IMG/VR virus record: IMGVR_UViG_3300030104_005397
Span: 1-36,891 of that record
DNA: 36,891 bases
Strand: one strand, 5' to 3'
Source of the DNA: a virus
Of this stretch, positions 10,220 to 23,934 are shown one piece after another. Every line of letters starts with the position of its first letter. The first letter of the stretch is position 1. The position numbers were made by a program, and so were the translations under genes. The notes under the pieces were generated by a model that did no database searches, was not told the origin of the DNA, and saw nothing but the letters and a program-made list of their open reading frames with translations.

Positions 10220-13200
10220 TTATCTATTTGCAACTGTTTGTTGATATGTTGTTCCCCCTACTTCTCTTTGCAACTCTCTAACTTCATCAAACCTGGAAGG
10301 ATCTGTAGGTGATATATTACCCATGTGTAGTTTAGTAATTTTTTGCTGTATTCTAAACGACATTGCTACCTCTCTTGTAAAGTTTGTATTTAGTTGAAAA
10401 AATTGCAAAGGGAAAGGAGTAGTATATTTGTTTGCTAAAATAAATTCTCTTTCTTCAGGAGTCAATCTATTCAAATATCTTGCCAAAAGATTTTCAGCTC
10501 TATCATAGTCTCCATCAAAAGTAGCTTTATCATAAATACTTTGTTGGTAATCATAATAACCTTTTGATGCTAACTTGAAGTCTCTCAAAGGATCAGTTTC
10601 AGATATTGTAAATTCATCCCTAGATGGCACACCAAATGTAGCTAAATTAATTCCTCTTTTTATAGTTTTCATTCTTGAGTGTGCATTTCTAATTTCCCTA
10701 GATTTTTCACTTCTGTTTAATTTAGGGTTGGCTAAAATTATCATCATTGTATCTTGGAAATCTGAATGAAGTGATGCAACCTGTTCTGTGTATTCATTAG
10801 GAGAAAATCTACTTGCATTGTAATAAAGAATATCTGTGTAATCTTGTTCAAACTCCCACAACTCATTATATTGCCTTCTAAATTCTGATTGAGCTACAGT
10901 ATTTTTATTAGGATATACAGACATATTCATACCCATAAAAGCAGGCAATGCAAGTCCAAGTGCTGCATTTTGACCTTCTAATCTAGCAAGTTCTGTAATT
11001 TCTTGTATAAACAAAGGTGCAAACTCTTGTATACTTTCAACATCTGTTGGAATAAACGCATCTGCAGCGTTAGTAATTTCATCTCCATAAAAATCCTGCC
11101 CTGTTGTAAGGCTAACAATACTTCTTGCACCTGGACTAAGTTTAGTTCCTAAAAAGTTTACAATAATTTCAGTAGTCTCAGTTTGATAAGGTTGCCCTGT
11201 TTGAGATAACAATTCACCATTAGGAGCTGTATTATGAACAACTCTATTGATAAGTCTTAAGACAGGTCCCATACCTGCAGTTAAATCTATATTTATATTA
11301 TCTTTTTTTAGTTTTAAGAAATTACTTTTACGTGAATCCATTTCTACATTGAAACCATTCAAAACTAAAAGGCTACCTATACCTGTAACAACTGACGCAA
11401 AACCTATCATGTCTTTTGCCATTTTTCTTGCAATAGATGTATCTGATCTTGAATTTCTTATTACTTCATTGAAAAATAAAACAGGAACTTGAAATCGTGA
11501 AGCTACCCATCTTGGTGCTAACGCTACAGCATTTAGTTCTCCTGCATATTTTTGCAACTTACCCAAGTCTCCTCTACCAGTTCCAGCATTTACAAAACGA
11601 ACATATTTTTTCATTTTGTCATTAATTATGTCTTTTGAATCTCCACTATTTTTCAAAACATTATAATAATCTTTAGTCAATCTATATCTAAGTGTATTCA
11701 AAAATGAAGTATGAAATCTTTCACCTGCTTTTATTAAATTACCTATACCAGGAACTTTCTTAATCCAGCTAGATATAAAAGCTTCTTCCCTCAAAGATAA
11801 AGGACTATCTGGATCTGCAATATACAAACCATAACCTGCACCTTCATCTACATTAGTTATAGGATTTACAGCTCTGTAGTCACTAGGTGTAGTAAACCTA
11901 GAAAAATCAGGATCTTTATATATGTTAGCCATTGCTCGATTATAATTTGTAGTGCTATAAAAAGTTTTCATTGATTTAGCTATATCATTTAGATACTTTA
12001 CAGGATTTCCACTAAACACCAAACCTTGATTAAATACTGCTCCTAAGTCTCCACCTAAAACTAACATTCTAGGAATATTTAAAATTTCCACTAAAGCAGT
12101 AACTAGTTTTTGTTTAAGGCTCATATTGGTAAATTTATCTAACTGTCTTTGTCTTTTTACTGCAGCTATAGCAGCATCATCTAACCCAAAAACTCTAGCC
12201 AAAGCATTAGCTTCTGTTCTAGTAAGCGCTTCTCCTGCAATATCTAAAGTTTCTTCAAGTTTATTTTTTGTAGTTATATCATTGATTTTTATACCTGTTA
12301 TTTTTTGCAATGCTGAAACAATATTTAAATAATCAAAAGATCTTATATTACCTGTTTTTGTTATAGTGAATCTATTAACATACGCAAGTAAACCCTTAAA
12401 CTCTTCGTAAGACATATCTAAAGGTTGAAATCCTAATTTTGCAAACTGACCACGTGCGCCACTAAAAGCATTTTGAGTCTGTTCTATAGGATCTTCTGAA
12501 GATTTAAGACCTTTACCAATTTTTTTAGCCTTAGCTTTTCTAAACTCAGTCAAATCTTTTTCATTTCTTTTTATAAGTACAGCTGCTTGATCAATTAATG
12601 CTGGTAATCTTTTTACAACTTCAGAACCTATAACAAAAAAACCTTCAGGAGTTATTTCTCCATTATTAAATAATTTACTATCTCCAGACTCCCTAACTTG
12701 TTTAACTGTTCTAGGAACAACACCTTGCAATATTGCAGGAATTTCTTTATTGGCGCTATGATAAGTTAAAGTTTCATTAATGTAAGCATCTTCACCATCA
12801 AAACCTTTAAAAATACCTGTAAATCTTCTTATAAGGTTTATAATTGTTTGTCCTAATGGCGTAACAGTTTGTTCTATATTTTTATCATCTATAAGTTTCT
12901 TACTTGTATTTTTTCCTTTAGCACCCTTCTTAAGGTTTCTTAATATTTTTCTTCCATCTTCAGTTTCAAAAGATTTTCTAGTATTACTACTTCTTGAAAA
13001 AGATAACTCATTTTTTCTATTAGGATTTTCAGTTCGCCTTACAAAATTTTTATTAATATTAGCATCATCACCAACTAATATTATTTGTCTATGTATTCCA
13101 TTTGTATTTTGCTGTCCAGCTAGCCATGTTATGGCATCTACACCTGAATCTTGATAAAGTTTATTCAAGCCATCTAACTTTTTATTTCCTTTAGAAAATT

Positions 13201-16200
13201 TTACTCTGTTATTTTTGTAACTTTGTACTATATCTTCTATGAAATAACTATTTTTCTTTAGCAATAAAGATTGACTTATAAATTGTTCATTAGTATTTGC
13301 TGTCCTTGCAACAATAGGATCTACAACTAAATTAAGATCTAAAGACCTATCAATACGTTCACTAAATACTTTTGCAATAAACCATTCTGCTGCTTTAGCA
13401 ACTTCAAGAGCAGCAATATTTTCTTCCCTAAATTTTTTACTAATTTTTGCTGGGAGAGTAAATGATTTTTTCGTAGCATCTTTCTCTCTAATAAACCTAA
13501 CCCCTAGAAAACCTTCAACAAAGTATTTTGTAAATCCTGTTAGATAGGTATGATGTAATCTAAAATCGTTATCCTGAAACAAAACATTGCCATATGCTGT
13601 TCTTACATAATTATCAGTAAAATGATTATCATAATAAGTTAGTTCATCTTTATTCAAAAAACTTTTAAATATTCTTCTACCAGAAAATTTATTTTGAAAT
13701 AATTCATCAATTATTATTAAATCTTTTATTATTTTATTATCTTTAGGATCAAAAAATCTCATAGGAACTGCAGTAGAATCACTAAGTAATTCTATAACTG
13801 TTCTTACAGTAGCATGAGTGCTTATGTTTTTTGCTAAAAGATTAACATCTAAATTATTATCTATTGCATAAATTTCTTTTTGTTTTAATATCAATTCTTT
13901 ATAATTTGAATAACCATATTCTCTAGCAATCAAATCAACATTATTGTTATAATCTTGTATAATTTTATTTGTTGGCGCACCTATATATTCATCAAAGTTT
14001 AATTCTTTATCAGCATACCTATTTGCAAGTTGAGTATTATAAAATTTATCCATCAAAGACTCTGCTGCTAAATCTCTATAATTAGGATCAAGATTGTCAT
14101 AAACTCCAAAATTATCTGCACGCAACACCCTAGACTCTGGTATTGCAATATTAAATGCTTCAATAGACTGGTTAAATTCATTTAAGCCTGAAGCCTTAGT
14201 AAAAGGTTTAGTAGCAAACATATCGCCAGAAAGGTGCATACCAGGTGACAAATAACTGTCAAATATTGGTGTATTAGAATGAATAAAAGAATCGCTTACA
14301 GGAAATCCAGTATGAAAAACTAATGCAGGTGTACCATCTTCATACTTAAATGCACTACCCCTAACAGCAACTTGTTCAGCAGGAGTAAGGTCATTTAATA
14401 TTTTTCCATTATCTCTATTTTCAATTATCATATCTAAACTTTTTCTAGCTTCGATACTTTGTGTTTGCAAAGTATTGTAAATAATTATTGGAGAATCATT
14501 ATCTATTTGAGCAGCTTGTCTAACTATTTCATCTGTACCTGATGTATTTTCCAATTGCAAGAGACGATTTATAACACTTTTATTATTTGGGTTTTCTAAA
14601 ATTTGTTCAGCAAAAGGTTTAGAAATACTAGACAATAATTTAGTTTCCATATTAGATATTTTTGCACTTTCAATTTCTATTGTTTTTTGTACATCTATAT
14701 TTTCAAAATTTCTCATACCTGCAAAATTATCTGCATTGATAGCATCTTTATTAAAGTAATTCAAAGCATACTCAAACAAATCATTTGCTTTTGTTCTTAA
14801 CACTTGTGTTGGTAAATCAGCATTTAAGTCAGCATTGATAAGTGTAGAAATAATTGTTGCAGGTTGCTGTGTAATAATTTCCCTAGAAGATCCAAATAAT
14901 TGAGGCATTATATTTCCTTCAACTATATTATCCAAAACTATTTTAAAATCATCATACGCAGATTCTAAAACTTCATCTGTAACACCTGACAAATCTACTG
15001 CAATATTTTCTTTTCTAAAAACTTTATCAAATAAAGCTTTTAGTGTTTTTGCTAATTGAATAAATATATTATCGTATTTACTTATAAAGTTTGGATCAGT
15101 TACTTTTTGTAATCCCCAATAAGAAAACAAATCTGCAAATGCTTCATGAACATCAGTAACAAAGTTTACATTTGGTTTAGAAGCATACTTGAATGTGTAT
15201 ATATTGTCCCAGTTTCTAAAATTAATCAAATCTAATTTATCTAAATCACCTTTATTAGTTATTGGATCTTCTAACAATTTTCTTTTTTGAATTATTTGAT
15301 TTTTTATTGCTATAGATAAATCATCAAACTCTTGTTGAGGCAATGCTCTAAATACATCTGGGAGTGTTGCATGAGCAAATTCATGTATCAAGGTTGCAAG
15401 GTCATCTACTTCATCTATACCTTTTTGAAACAATTGTATTGTAGATGTAAACCTTGGCATTGGATCTGCATATCTTAATATATTTCCATCAATTACCTGA
15501 GATAAACTTCCTACTGGATGTGTAACCGTTCTTCCCATCCCATAAGGTGAATTTAAATCTACATTCTTTGGATCAACTTGGTCAGAAATACCTCTAATTG
15601 CAAACTTGATATATTCTTGTTCACCTAAACCTAAAGAACTTGCTAAAAATTTTAGTAGAGGACTAAAAACTTCTTTGGTTGTTTGCCTGGAAGCCTGACT
15701 AATATTCAAAACCTCACCCACACCATCTATGTAGTCATCAATATTTTCAACTTTTTTGGTAATTTCTTTACCACGAATTTTAGCATTAATTGTATTTTCT
15801 GATGGATTAAACCTAGCAAGAGATGGTTCAGTCTGACCTATTCTATTTATTCCTCTTTGTTCTTTGAAATCTCTTATAGATTCTAACGAACGCCTTACAT
15901 TATCTGCTCTTTGCAAATTGAAATCACTAGGAGATCTTCTCAAAATACCTTCTTGCAAAATCAATCTAGGTTCATCAATTACTGTAAATAAATCTCCTGG
16001 TAATCCTAAGTCAGATGGGGGAATATTTATATCTCCATAAGTAATTGCTCCAGACTCTCCAGCTTGCTGTAATTCTTGAGACGTTCTTCTAACTGGATTA
16101 GCTAAAGGCTGATCAGATAATGCTCCTAACGTAAAATCAAAAGCAGCAGCATTTTGTTGTTCAGGAGTTACTGCATTTCTAGCAAAAGATATTTCTTCTA

Positions 16201-16921
16201 ACGATAGTTGGTTAGAACCAGGAACATCTTTAGGATTATTATCTACCTGTTCTAATTGCTCTGCGTTTCTAAGAACCTTGTTACCATATGACCTGTTATA
16301 TTTATTTATACCTTTGAATACTACACCACCACCTAACAAACCACCAACTAAAGCTGCTCCTACTTGAAATGGTACTGGTAATCCTGCTTCAACTGCAGCA
16401 TTAGCAACTCCTTTTGCAACTGGAACTGCACCAAGTCCTATGGCTGCTTCACCTGCAAACCTTTTACTAAATCCAGATACTCCAGTTGCATTAGTCTTTA
16501 CAACTGGTTCTATAATAGCTGCTGCTGGTCTAGTAAGTAATTTAGCTTTATTACTTGCTCTTAGCGCAGCTGAAACTCTGTTACCAACACCTGCTGTTCC
16601 AGCCAATAAAGCTATTTCAAAAGGAGAAGTTAGTTCAGTTATTTCATTTATAACACCTTCAAATGTTACTTCATCTGGAACTAAAGGATCTATTATTTCT
16701 GCTGCTCTTTTAAAAGTTGGAACTTCTTTTAATCTTTCTAAACCTTGATCAATCAAACCTAGTCCAGGAACTAAGTTTTGTCTATATGCTCCTCTCAAAG
16801 GAGTAGGCAATGCTTCACCTATTCTTTGTGCTGTACCTCTAGGAATTATAGGTTCAAATAAATTAGAAACAAAACTAGTAAAATCTGGAACTCTAGGACT
16901 AGGAAACTGCTGTTGTACCAT
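10220..16921 (-). CDS. Giant polyvalent virion protein with zinc-metalloprotease motif
   Basis: The protein has 2,233 residues, about 18% of the window. The N-terminus is Pro-rich, with a Gly/Ala hydrophobic segment near 185-205 that could touch a membrane. HEFAH at 513-517, preceded by DDLATLI, is a gluzincin-type zinc-protease motif (MPTase of polyvalent proteins). Residues near 867-905 (LVFHTGF, later SPGMHLSGDMFAT) resemble the NAD-binding start of ART-type ADP-ribosyltransferase domains, a weaker match. About 1735-1960 resembles the C-terminal module of large phage polyvalent proteins (LNTLRYRLTKDYYN, GTGRGDLG, a DSRKSNFLKLKK strand). Such proteins are thought to be packaged and ejected with the DNA. 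It lies between portal-side genes and the scaffold, as an internal virion protein would. RBS GGAG precedes the ATG. Confidence 0.8.
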   Translation of the reverse strand: MVQQQFPSPRVPDFTSFVSNLFEPIIPRGTAQRIGEALPTPLRGAYRQNLVPGLGLIDQGLERLKEVPTFKRAAEIIDPLVPDEVTFEGVINEITELTSPFEIALLAGTAGVGNRVSAALRASNKAKLLTRPAAAIIEPVVKTNATGVSGFSKRFAGEAAIGLGAVPVAKGVANAAVEAGLPVPFQVGAALVGGLLGGGVVFKGINKYNRSYGNKVLRNAEQLEQVDNNPKDVPGSNQLSLEEISFARNAVTPEQQNAAAFDFTLGALSDQPLANPVRRTSQELQQAGESGAITYGDINIPPSDLGLPGDLFTVIDEPRLILQEGILRRSPSDFNLQRADNVRRSLESIRDFKEQRGINRIGQTEPSLARFNPSENTINAKIRGKEITKKVENIDDYIDGVGEVLNISQASRQTTKEVFSPLLKFLASSLGLGEQEYIKFAIRGISDQVDPKNVDLNSPYGMGRTVTHPVGSLSQVIDGNILRYADPMPRFTSTIQLFQKGIDEVDDLATLIHEFAHATLPDVFRALPQQEFDDLSIAIKNQIIQKRKLLEDPITNKGDLDKLDLINFRNWDNIYTFKYASKPNVNFVTDVHEAFADLFSYWGLQKVTDPNFISKYDNIFIQLAKTLKALFDKVFRKENIAVDLSGVTDEVLESAYDDFKIVLDNIVEGNIMPQLFGSSREIITQQPATIISTLINADLNADLPTQVLRTKANDLFEYALNYFNKDAINADNFAGMRNFENIDVQKTIEIESAKISNMETKLLSSISKPFAEQILENPNNKSVINRLLQLENTSGTDEIVRQAAQIDNDSPIIIYNTLQTQSIEARKSLDMIIENRDNGKILNDLTPAEQVAVRGSAFKYEDGTPALVFHTGFPVSDSFIHSNTPIFDSYLSPGMHLSGDMFATKPFTKASGLNEFNQSIEAFNIAIPESRVLRADNFGVYDNLDPNYRDLAAESLMDKFYNTQLANRYADKELNFDEYIGAPTNKIIQDYNNNVDLIAREYGYSNYKELILKQKEIYAIDNNLDVNLLAKNISTHATVRTVIELLSDSTAVPMRFFDPKDNKIIKDLIIIDELFQNKFSGRRIFKSFLNKDELTYYDNHFTDNYVRTAYGNVLFQDNDFRLHHTYLTGFTKYFVEGFLGVRFIREKDATKKSFTLPAKISKKFREENIAALEVAKAAEWFIAKVFSERIDRSLDLNLVVDPIVARTANTNEQFISQSLLLKKNSYFIEDIVQSYKNNRVKFSKGNKKLDGLNKLYQDSGVDAITWLAGQQNTNGIHRQIILVGDDANINKNFVRRTENPNRKNELSFSRSSNTRKSFETEDGRKILRNLKKGAKGKNTSKKLIDDKNIEQTVTPLGQTIINLIRRFTGIFKGFDGEDAYINETLTYHSANKEIPAILQGVVPRTVKQVRESGDSKLFNNGEITPEGFFVIGSEVVKRLPALIDQAAVLIKRNEKDLTEFRKAKAKKIGKGLKSSEDPIEQTQNAFSGARGQFAKLGFQPLDMSYEEFKGLLAYVNRFTITKTGNIRSFDYLNIVSALQKITGIKINDITTKNKLEETLDIAGEALTRTEANALARVFGLDDAAIAAVKRQRQLDKFTNMSLKQKLVTALVEILNIPRMLVLGGDLGAVFNQGLVFSGNPVKYLNDIAKSMKTFYSTTNYNRAMANIYKDPDFSRFTTPSDYRAVNPITNVDEGAGYGLYIADPDSPLSLREEAFISSWIKKVPGIGNLIKAGERFHTSFLNTLRYRLTKDYYNVLKNSGDSKDIINDKMKKYVRFVNAGTGRGDLGKLQKYAGELNAVALAPRWVASRFQVPVLFFNEVIRNSRSDTSIARKMAKDMIGFASVVTGIGSLLVLNGFNVEMDSRKSNFLKLKKDNINIDLTAGMGPVLRLINRVVHNTAPNGELLSQTGQPYQTETTEIIVNFLGTKLSPGARSIVSLTTGQDFYGDEITNAADAFIPTDVESIQEFAPLFIQEITELARLEGQNAALGLALPAFMGMNMSVYPNKNTVAQSEFRRQYNELWEFEQDYTDILYYNASRFSPNEYTEQVASLHSDFQDTMMIILANPKLNRSEKSREIRNAHSRMKTIKRGINLATFGVPSRDEFTISETDPLRDFKLASKGYYDYQQSIYDKATFDGDYDRAENLLARYLNRLTPEEREFILANKYTTPFPLQFFQLNTNFTREVAMSFRIQQKITKLHMGNISPTDPSRFDEVRELQREVGGTTYQQTVANR

Positions 16922-22760: not shown

Positions 22761-22794
22761 TTCCCCTCGTCTAACGGTAGTTAGACTAGGGGAA
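22761..22794. other. Long hairpin upstream of the early operon
   Basis: TTCCCCT (22,761-22,767) pairs with AGGGGAA (22,788-22,794), and inside it GTCTAAC pairs with GTTAGAC around the loop GGTA. The only interruption is a single C/T mismatch. That makes 14 bp, followed by TTTAACC. The inner part is a CTAAC-N4-GTTAG palindrome. The 3' arm (CTAGGGGAATT) is repeated in the hammerhead ribozyme at 23,491. Confidence 0.75.
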
Positions 22795-22889
22795 TTTAAC
22801 CTGCTACCATTGAAATATCAGTCGATTTCGGCTGAGTGAACCAAGTCAAAGGGGTTCGATGGAACACCTATGGCACATGAGAAAGAGAG

Positions 22890-23375
22890 TTAGACTATGT
22901 CTAAGAACGCAACCAAAGTGTCCCCAAAGGGGACAAAATCAGCCAACAAAACCCAATTGCTAAAGCAATTGGAGGGCGAGACACTAGGGACGAAGTCCCT
23001 ACAAGCACTCCAGTATGGAGTGAAGTGGAGCCAGTCAAAGACTGGGACGCAACCTCAAGGGTACCTTGAGAAGAAAACCATCCTCAAAGAACTACGTTCT
23101 TTGGGCAAGAAAATCGGCTTCAAGGCTCAAGCCCTAAAGGGCTTGTCCAAGAGGGAACTACGTTCCCTAATTTCTCCAAACGTAGTTTGGAGTGAGGTGC
23201 AAGAGTCCAAGAAATCTTCACCGAAGGTGAAGGTCACAGGTGGCAAGGTCGACCTCGCACTCGTACCTGCAGACGACACACCTGCGAAGTCCCCGAAGGG
23301 GACGAAAGCCAAGAAAACCAAGCCGACCATTGACGAAGTCAATGCGAAGTTGGAAAAACTCATCAACGTAGTTGA
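22890..23375. repeat. Array of about fifteen tight mini-hairpins
   Basis: Stem-loop-stem units (loop in brackets): 22,890 (TAT), 22,919 (AAA), 22,953 (TAAA), 22,985 (GAA), 23,006 (GTA), 23,031 (AAA), 23,054 (GTA), 23,083 (TAC), 23,128 (TAAA), 23,152 (TAC), 23,174 (GTA), 23,216 (GAA), 23,289 (GAA), 23,328 (GAA), 23,363 (GTA). Stems are 5-8 bp and perfect, or 10 bp with one wobble at 23,083. Units are spaced about 20-45 bases apart and are not in a fixed codon phase. They are not direct repeats of one another, so this is neither CRISPR nor a simple tandem repeat. Confidence 0.9.
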
Positions 23376-23400
23376 GAAGTTGGCTTTGGCTCAAGCGTAG
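22897..23400 (+). CDS. Lys-rich early protein encoded by a hairpin-packed gene
   Basis: The protein has 167 residues, is very basic (about one fifth Lys) and has no family I recognise. The middle (LEKKTILKELRSLGKKIGFK) could be a small helical DNA-binding domain. Two SPKGTK motifs occur near residues 9-14 and 133-138. The C-terminus (DEVNAKLEKLINVVEKLALA) looks like a short coiled coil. It is the first rightward gene, so probably expressed early. Its DNA is extraordinary: about fifteen mini-hairpins with 5-10 bp stems and 3-4 nt loops cover about half the gene, one overlapping the start codon (TTAGAC-TAT-GTCTAA, 22,890-22,904). Coding is supported by length and synonymous differences between the two SPKGT repeats, but the locus may also act as RNA or DNA structure. 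Confidence 0.7.
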   Translation: MSKNATKVSPKGTKSANKTQLLKQLEGETLGTKSLQALQYGVKWSQSKTGTQPQGYLEKKTILKELRSLGKKIGFKAQALKGLSKRELRSLISPNVVWSEVQESKKSSPKVKVTGGKVDLALVPADDTPAKSPKGTKAKKTKPTIDEVNAKLEKLINVVEKLALAQA

Positions 23401-23410
23401 TTCACACACA

Positions 23411-23441
23411 GGCGTAGGCTCGGCATAGGTCGAGCCACGCC
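23411..23441 (+). other. Hairpin after the early gene
   Basis: GGCGT and GGCTCG pair with CGAGCC and ACGCC, giving 11 bp with one bulged A around the loop GCATAGGT. It starts 11 bases after the stop of the hairpin-rich gene and ends 20 bases before the hammerhead. It is not followed by a U-tract, so it is more likely a stabilising or ribozyme-accessory structure than a terminator. Confidence 0.7.
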
Positions 23442-23460
23442 AAAAAGCCAACCGAGAACA

Positions 23461-23524
23461 GGCGAAACTCGTACACGTATACGTACGAGTCTAGGGGAAT
23501 TGGACGCTCCCCTACTGATGAGCC
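23461..23524 (+). ncRNA. Type II hammerhead ribozyme
   Basis: All core positions of a hammerhead are present in the circularly permuted (stem II open) order. GGC (23,461-23,463, stem II) is followed by GAAA. Stem III is ACTCGTAC / GTACGAGT (23,467-23,490). C23,491 is the cleavage base, giving GTC. Stem I is TAGGGGA / TCCCCTA (23,492-23,514) with loop ATTGGACGC. CTGATGA (23,515-23,521) then leads into GCC (23,522-23,524), which closes stem II. The A15.1-U16.1 and G10.1-C11.1 pairs are both present. Cleavage would occur after 23,491, separating the hairpin-rich mRNA from the downstream genes. Stem II is only 3 bp, so activity may depend on loop contacts. Confidence 0.87.
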
Positions 23525-23530
23525 AAGTCC

Positions 23531-23552
23531 CACGCTAACGAGTGTTAGTGTG
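23531..23552 (+). repeat. CACGCTAAC-GAGT-GTTAGTGTG hairpin
   Basis: A 9-bp stem with one G-T wobble around the loop GAGT, just 3' of the hammerhead and 29 bases before the next ATG. The core CGCTAACRAGTGTTAG is repeated at 24,123-24,138, and in both places CATAARC follows. Probably a shared regulatory or mRNA element. Confidence 0.75.
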
Positions 23553-23580
23553 TGCATAAACTTGTAAAAAGGAGCAAATT

Positions 23581-23934
23581 ATGAACGCCTTAAAAACACG
23601 TGCAACACATGGCAAATATTGGATAAACGGGAACGAGCGAACACGTACGAGAAATTGGACTGTGCGCTATGGGGAGTACGAGGATATATACACTCGTGCA
23701 GGTGAAATCTTGGAAAAGATTTCCAAGAGTCAAAAATTTTGGGTAGGCTACGAGCCGACCGAACGAGAGGACGACTGTTCATGTGAGCAGATATGTTCGT
23801 ACTGCAAGGCTCAAATGACCAAGCGAGTCAACGAGAGATTGAGCGAGGGAGCCGAGATTGGCTACCAACATGATGGGACGCCTATCATGTACGAGCGAGT
23901 GAGCAAAACCAAAGTATTCTTATACTACGTATAA
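23581..23934 (+). CDS. Early protein with Cys cluster (117 aa)
   Basis: A 117-residue protein with the RBS AGGAGCA 8 bases before the ATG. The N-terminal half is basic (HGKYWINGNERTRTRNWTVR). The middle carries CSCEQICSYC, a tight Cys cluster that probably binds zinc. The C-terminus is YERVSKTKVFLYYV. It is the first gene after the hammerhead cleavage site, and its DNA is GC-richer than later genes. No family is recognised. A small DNA- or protein-binding host-takeover factor is a guess. Confidence 0.7.
   Translation: MNALKTRATHGKYWINGNERTRTRNWTVRYGEYEDIYTRAGEILEKISKSQKFWVGYEPTEREDDCSCEQICSYCKAQMTKRVNERLSEGAEIGYQHDGTPIMYERVSKTKVFLYYV

Follow-up and report, generated by a model that had tools for sequence, protein, structure and literature searches.

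The closest described counterparts of the element reported here are the type II hammerhead ribozymes of Perreault et al. 2011 (PMC3088659; Rfam family RF02276), which are active, use a pseudoknot between loop I and the 3′ tail, and have been proposed to process prophage transcripts. In the haloviruses HF1 and HF2, which are lytic DNA viruses, a hammerhead termed HHphage lies in an early-gene leader, 13 nt before the early gene; it has unusual salt needs, and a transcript 5′ end was mapped within three nucleotides of its cut (PMC3088659). In prophages, clustered hammerheads on the same strand flank single genes such as ardA (PMC3088659). The role of prokaryotic and phage hammerheads is considered an open question (PMC6155905), and in the literature we searched, we found no later study on type II hammerheads in phage operons.

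Our window is the entire IMG/VR record IMGVR_UViG_3300030104_005397 (36,891 bases). At 23461–23524 on the + strand, we found a complete type II hammerhead with all core bases present, both by direct reading and with a strict descriptor, which it matches in the order GGC-GAAA-stem III-U-C-stem I-CUGAUGA-GCC. From 5′ to 3′, its letters fall into the segments GGC, GAAA, CTCGTAC, acgtatac, GTACGAG, T, C, TAGGGGA, attggacgc, TCCCCTA, CTGATGA, and GCC. The 3′ strand of stem II (GGC, 23461–23463) pairs with GCC at 23522–23524 to give an open stem of 3 bp that includes the G10.1-C11.1 pair (G23522-C23463). The core GAAA (23464–23467; G12, A13, A14, and A15.1) runs into the stem III hairpin (23467–23490), whose 8 bp include A15.1-U16.1 (A23467-U23490). 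H17 is C23491, not G, and is followed by the stem I hairpin (23492–23514; 7 bp, UAGGGGA/UCCCCUA) and by the core CUGAUGA (23515–23521; C3, U4, G5, A6, N7, G8, and A9). Loops I and III measure 9 and 8 nt; for the segment in isolation, both the MFE and the centroid structure have loops closing helices I and III and leave helix II open. Under the hammerhead rule, cleavage is predicted 3′ of GUC, between C17 (23491) and U (23492). A sequence-only reading of this DNA had called a type II hammerhead with every invariant position in place, stem II open, 8 bp in stem III, 7 bp in stem I, and a cut after 23,491, and had noted that hammerheads are known in phages; we agree on each of these counts, the last from PMC3088659 and from our own survey of phage type II hammerheads. 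The window motif shares its core, stem order, open stem II of 2 to 3 bp, GUC cut site, loop I/tail pseudoknot, and intergenic phage location with RF02276 and the published type II examples, and differs from them in its A+U-richer stems, longer loop III, and an Rfam score under the cut-off. Like HHphage, it lies in the leader of a gene, apparently an early one, but its core is standard and it sits between two cistrons, whereas the HHphage core is a variant with insertions that resembles a high-magnesium saltern variant.

The descriptor found no second match on either strand of the 36,891-nt window, and a descriptor scan for hammerheads of types I and III found neither in the window. An excised circle, in which two ribozymes flank the RNA, was considered and rejected for the window, where the ribozyme is single copy. 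Two hundred dinucleotide shuffles of the genome yielded 15 weaker matches, the best with 13 total stem pairs against 18 in the real motif. When the window was scanned with Rfam at gathering level, there was no match at the hammerhead and no other Rfam element in the window; over 401 nt, the type III model alone responded, in the wrong register and at 22.5 bits. On a 106-nt stretch, RF02276 (Hammerhead_II) aligned in register to 23460–23528 with 32.2 bits (E 2.2e-5), below the curated gathering cut-off of 37 bits, which is a curator's reporting threshold and no structural feature of the ribozyme. Over the whole genome, the same model gave no match, although it matches this site on the 106-nt stretch; short input is probably prefiltered less strictly, which would account for the miss in wider scans.

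Because the RF02276 consensus is G+C-rich, we built a new covariance model (R1). A pattern scan of viral contigs (GCGAAAC..GTC..CTGATGAGC) returned at least 119 stretches; among the matches listed were 109 strict hammerheads in 67 loci, the window copy included. R1 was made from 51 diverse, unrelated phage type II hammerheads among the matches listed, with the window excluded. In the alignment of these 51 among the matches listed, 99.2% of stem cells are paired, and covariation is 0.88 compared with 0.17 after shuffling and 0.10 to 0.14 with slid partners. R1 placed the window motif at 23461–23533 with 47.6 bits (E 4.5e-11), its sole match in 36.9 kb. The covariance-score check proposed in the sequence-only reading thus came out divided: RF02276 nominally speaks against the motif (32.2 versus 37 bits), and both E values, 2.2e-5 and 4.5e-11, speak for it. 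A chance arrangement of hammerhead-like letters would be consistent with an Rfam score below the curated cut-off, but the R1 E value, a real motif that exceeds anything in the shuffles, the compensatory changes in a relative, and the hammerheads carried by other family members at the corresponding place leave that explanation with almost no probability. We conclude that the window motif is a genuine type II hammerhead, a class already known from phages.

The hammerhead also continues 3′ of 23524 through a pseudoknot tail, an extension that had been overlooked. GGAC in loop I (23502–23505) is complementary to GUCC in the 3′ tail (23527–23530), giving a predicted pseudoknot of just 4 bp in the window. 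Among the matches listed, 77 phage type II hammerheads have a loop I of 4 nt or more, and in 39 of these loop I and tail match over at least four Watson-Crick pairs; in 500 tail-swapped sets, the mean was 16 and the maximum was 26.

The ribozyme lies where the sequence-only reading had placed it, after a hairpin-packed ORF (22897–23400, +) and before the next gene, ORF 23581–23934 (+). Its strand is that of the replication-type genes, which diverge from the terminase and capsid genes. The former, the first rightward ORF, encodes 167 aa and ends 60 nt upstream of the ribozyme; the latter encodes 117 aa, has no assigned function, starts 56 nt downstream of the ribozyme, and is preceded by a ribosome-binding-site-like AGGAG at 23570–23574 (+). 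The structural genes to the left of the ribozyme, among them those for terminase and capsid and a 2233-aa ORF (10220–16921, -) with no Pfam match, occupy the - strand, while the rightward + genes comprise a run of small ORFs followed by a Prim-Pol/AAA primase and a resolvase-like ORF. From this layout, the rightward transcript is probably early. A consensus scan for promoters around the locus gave nothing convincing, so a single common transcript spanning the ribozyme is an assumption. We found no similar DNA among annotated phages, and the best match of the window terminase, in actinobacteriophages, reaches only about 24% identity; the phage therefore has no close cultured relative. Six CTAAC-N(2-8)-GTTAG palindromes occur in the window (3791, 10157, 16198, 22771, 23535, and 24125; 0.35 expected from shuffling), three of which surround the start of the rightward genes. 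These palindromes might serve as an operator, or as a hairpin element in RNA.

A relative, L002/L122 (IMGVR_UViG_3300025132_000208), provides a natural mutant of the locus. Its DNA is about 94 to 95% identical to the window on either side of the hairpin-packed ORF. Stem I reads UAGCGAG/CUCGCUA in L002 and UAGGGGA/UCCCCUA in the window, a difference of three double compensatory changes, and the core, the loop I pseudoknot positions, and the tail are identical. Stem I divergence that is compensatory only, next to an identical core, loop I, and tail, indicates continuing selection. Two flanking hairpins likewise stay paired despite changes between the two genomes. One, at 23411–23441 (+), follows the upstream stop codon and precedes the ribozyme, and it has GGCGU/ACGCC in the window and GACGU/ACGUC in L002; the other, a 9-bp hairpin at 23531–23552 (+) within the next gene's leader (CACGCTAAC-GAGT-GTTAGTGTG), has a G-U pair in the window and an A-U pair in L002. 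Further upstream, a leader hairpin before the first rightward ORF (22765–22795) is matched in L002 by a hairpin of quite different sequence at the corresponding place, which suggests that hairpins are maintained in the leader as well.

These comparisons bear on whether the motif might be an inactive relic, a former ribozyme now unable to cut. L002 has lost one pair of stem III to an A.A mismatch, and the type III-like core of another relative, L159, contains an extra A after A6 (CUGAACGA), an insertion of a kind reported with low activity (PMC3088659). Set against this are the perfect core of the window and a stem I that departs from L002 by compensatory changes only, and we regard a relic as very improbable. 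Somewhat less improbable, though still unlikely, is a regulated ribozyme, whose cleavage would respond to ribosomes, salt, temperature, or a ligand and would control ORF 23581: the motif sits in the leader of that ORF, where another conserved hairpin precedes the ribosome-binding site, and the halovirus hammerhead just before an early gene has its unusual salt needs (PMC3088659), but the window motif has no large loop or extra domain, its loops being those of 9 and 8 nt given above, and no other Rfam element accompanies it.

To place the locus among other phages, we surveyed where type II hammerheads lie, with ORFs in the 96-case survey called by a simple rule, so that the distances are approximate. 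Among the matches listed, the next start led by a Shine-Dalgarno (SD) sequence lies a median of 27 nt after the motif, compared with 272 nt for random points, and 66% of phage type II hammerheads have such a start within 40 nt compared with 9% of random points. In 96 unrelated phage cases among the matches listed, the upstream stop codon lies a median of 13.5 nt before the hammerhead (0 to 5 nt in 31 of the 96), the next SD-led start lies a median of 29 nt after it, and just three of the 96 fall inside an ORF of at least 100 aa. Phage type II hammerheads are intercistronic punctuation, typically filling the gap between a stop codon and a ribosome-binding site, and this placement supports intercistronic cutting, either for separation of cistrons or for leader processing. 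Several unrelated phage contigs (L069, L107, L082, L023, and L033) carry many type II hammerheads on the same strand, L069 with as many as 11 pattern matches, and are good candidates for gene-by-gene transcript cutting. The idea that phage hammerheads in general have hairpin-rich surroundings was rejected, as hairpin density beside the hammerheads of other phages is at background.

The compensatory change in L002, the conserved pseudoknot, and the phage-wide stop-to-RBS position together make cleavage, early timing, and operon processing likely. We give a probability of roughly 80% to the reading that this is a pseudoknot-stabilised type II hammerhead that cuts the rightward mRNA between the hairpin-packed cistron and ORF 23581. 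The rightward, probably early, transcript would fold, with the hammerhead held in parallel by the loop I/3′-tail pseudoknot, and would cut itself between 23491 and 23492, separating the hairpin-packed first cistron from ORF 23581 and later genes. Both stems flanking a type II cut are closed, so the upstream RNA would end in stem III and the downstream RNA would start with stem I. Folded hairpins are predicted at or near both new ends not only in the window but also in L002, in the clade of L164, and in the type III-like cases described below, where a strong hairpin lies 6 nt upstream of the cut and stem I begins the downstream RNA. The gain would likely be independent stability and translation of two hairpin-ended pieces. 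In T7-like phages, cuts by RNase III give RNA pieces separate stability and translation. The early-gene sites of T7 are likewise places where polycistronic RNA is cut between cistrons into hairpin-ended products, but there a host protein cuts the stem, whereas the window RNA is predicted to cut itself. We infer cutting in the cell, early timing, and an effect on end protection, stability, or translation as likely steps of this process.

The family of the window phage was represented by 51 loci from a terminase search; repeating the search from a distant member brought in hardly any more. L122 carries a type II hammerhead, and so does the group of L135, L136, L164, and L165, where a second copy follows about 620 nt further on. 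In this second hammerhead (2156–2220 in L136; also in L164), an additional U separates A9 from the stem II pairs; it has a 6-bp GUGACC/GGUCAC pseudoknot and scores 39.7 bits with RF02276, above the cut-off of 37. These phages recall the clustered prophage ribozymes, in which, as here, same-strand hammerheads flank single genes, although the window holds one copy and the related L164 clade two. At the corresponding place in L160 and L168, we read by hand a candidate hammerhead that is type III-like, with a stem II that is very short and a GGUA/UACC match between its loops; L159 has at this place, about 1.5 kb past the terminase start, a hand-read candidate of the same build apart from its extra A. 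L168 has an additional type III hammerhead, which scores 36.1 bits with RF00008 against a cut-off of 48.5. No hammerhead was found at the corresponding place in the remaining members of the 51 loci, which are most of the family, and it is thus dispensable at the family level. As a separate observation, stretches of roughly 80 nt in some relatives match the tmRNA family with more than its gathering score (L145 1002–1081, L136 696–775, L151 1150–1229, and L147 328–406), and L147 also has a tRNA; these short tmRNA-like pieces are perhaps tRNA-like genes or attachment remnants.

In hammerhead carriers, the first rightward ORF is hairpin-packed and encodes a homologous protein. Of the 27 genomes that extend 2.3 kb or more past the terminase, 9 carry a hammerhead, and the hairpin-packed ORF is present in exactly these 9. 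Homologues of window ORF 22897–23400 were found only in hammerhead-carrying relatives and in L123, a contig that ends before the ribozyme site; single-protein searches with the hairpin ORF gave no further homologues. The 504 nt of the window ORF contain 13 perfect hairpins of at least 6 bp, short and with loops of 2 to 3 nt, compared with 0.69 after synonymous-codon shuffling, and its folding energy is -190 kcal/mol compared with -142 (SD 6) for shuffled versions. The other five hairpin ORFs (L122, L164, L159, L160, and L168) hold 7 to 14 hairpins each, compared with 1.2 to 1.8 after the same shuffling, and are similarly packed with unlike stems. RNA or DNA hairpins of the first rightward ORF seem to be under strong selection.

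This pairing raises the possibility, which we hold only tentatively, that ribozyme and hairpin-packed gene form a cassette, with the ribozyme releasing a hairpin-array RNA as a unit with a defined, hairpin-protected 3′ end. The exact coincidence in 9 of 27 genomes, the hairpin excess per ORF (7 to 14 against 0.7 to 1.8), and the occupation of the place by type II hammerheads in two lineages and by a type III-like one in a third all fit a cassette; within that explanation, the last point would mean that selection maintains the cut over any one permutation. However, two state changes on the terminase tree suffice for the distribution, and early regions differ broadly across the family and have been widely replaced in relatives that lack the pair, so joint loss of the whole region is enough to produce the pattern, and it supplies little independent evidence for a functional link. 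In addition, the ribozyme of the L164 clade is separated from the hairpin ORF by a small zinc-ribbon-like ORF, and the background hairpin density beside other phages' hammerheads also counts against a cassette. More doubtful still is a selected cassette, kept for its cut and not its permutation, in which the ribozyme makes the 3′ end of a discrete hairpin-array RNA that itself functions early in infection.

The locus is a defined place for testing what hammerheads do in prokaryotes and phages, with a perfect core and a clear predicted cut site between cistrons; the compensatory mutations of L002 make it a natural control, and some related phages keep the ribozyme while others lack it. The strict pairing of the hammerhead with a hairpin-packed gene in related phages, for which we found no earlier report in the literature we searched, is unusual and testable and merits its own study. 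The survey adds distance figures for phage type II hammerheads, which favour cistron separation or leader processing and generalise both the processing idea and the halovirus example of PMC3088659.
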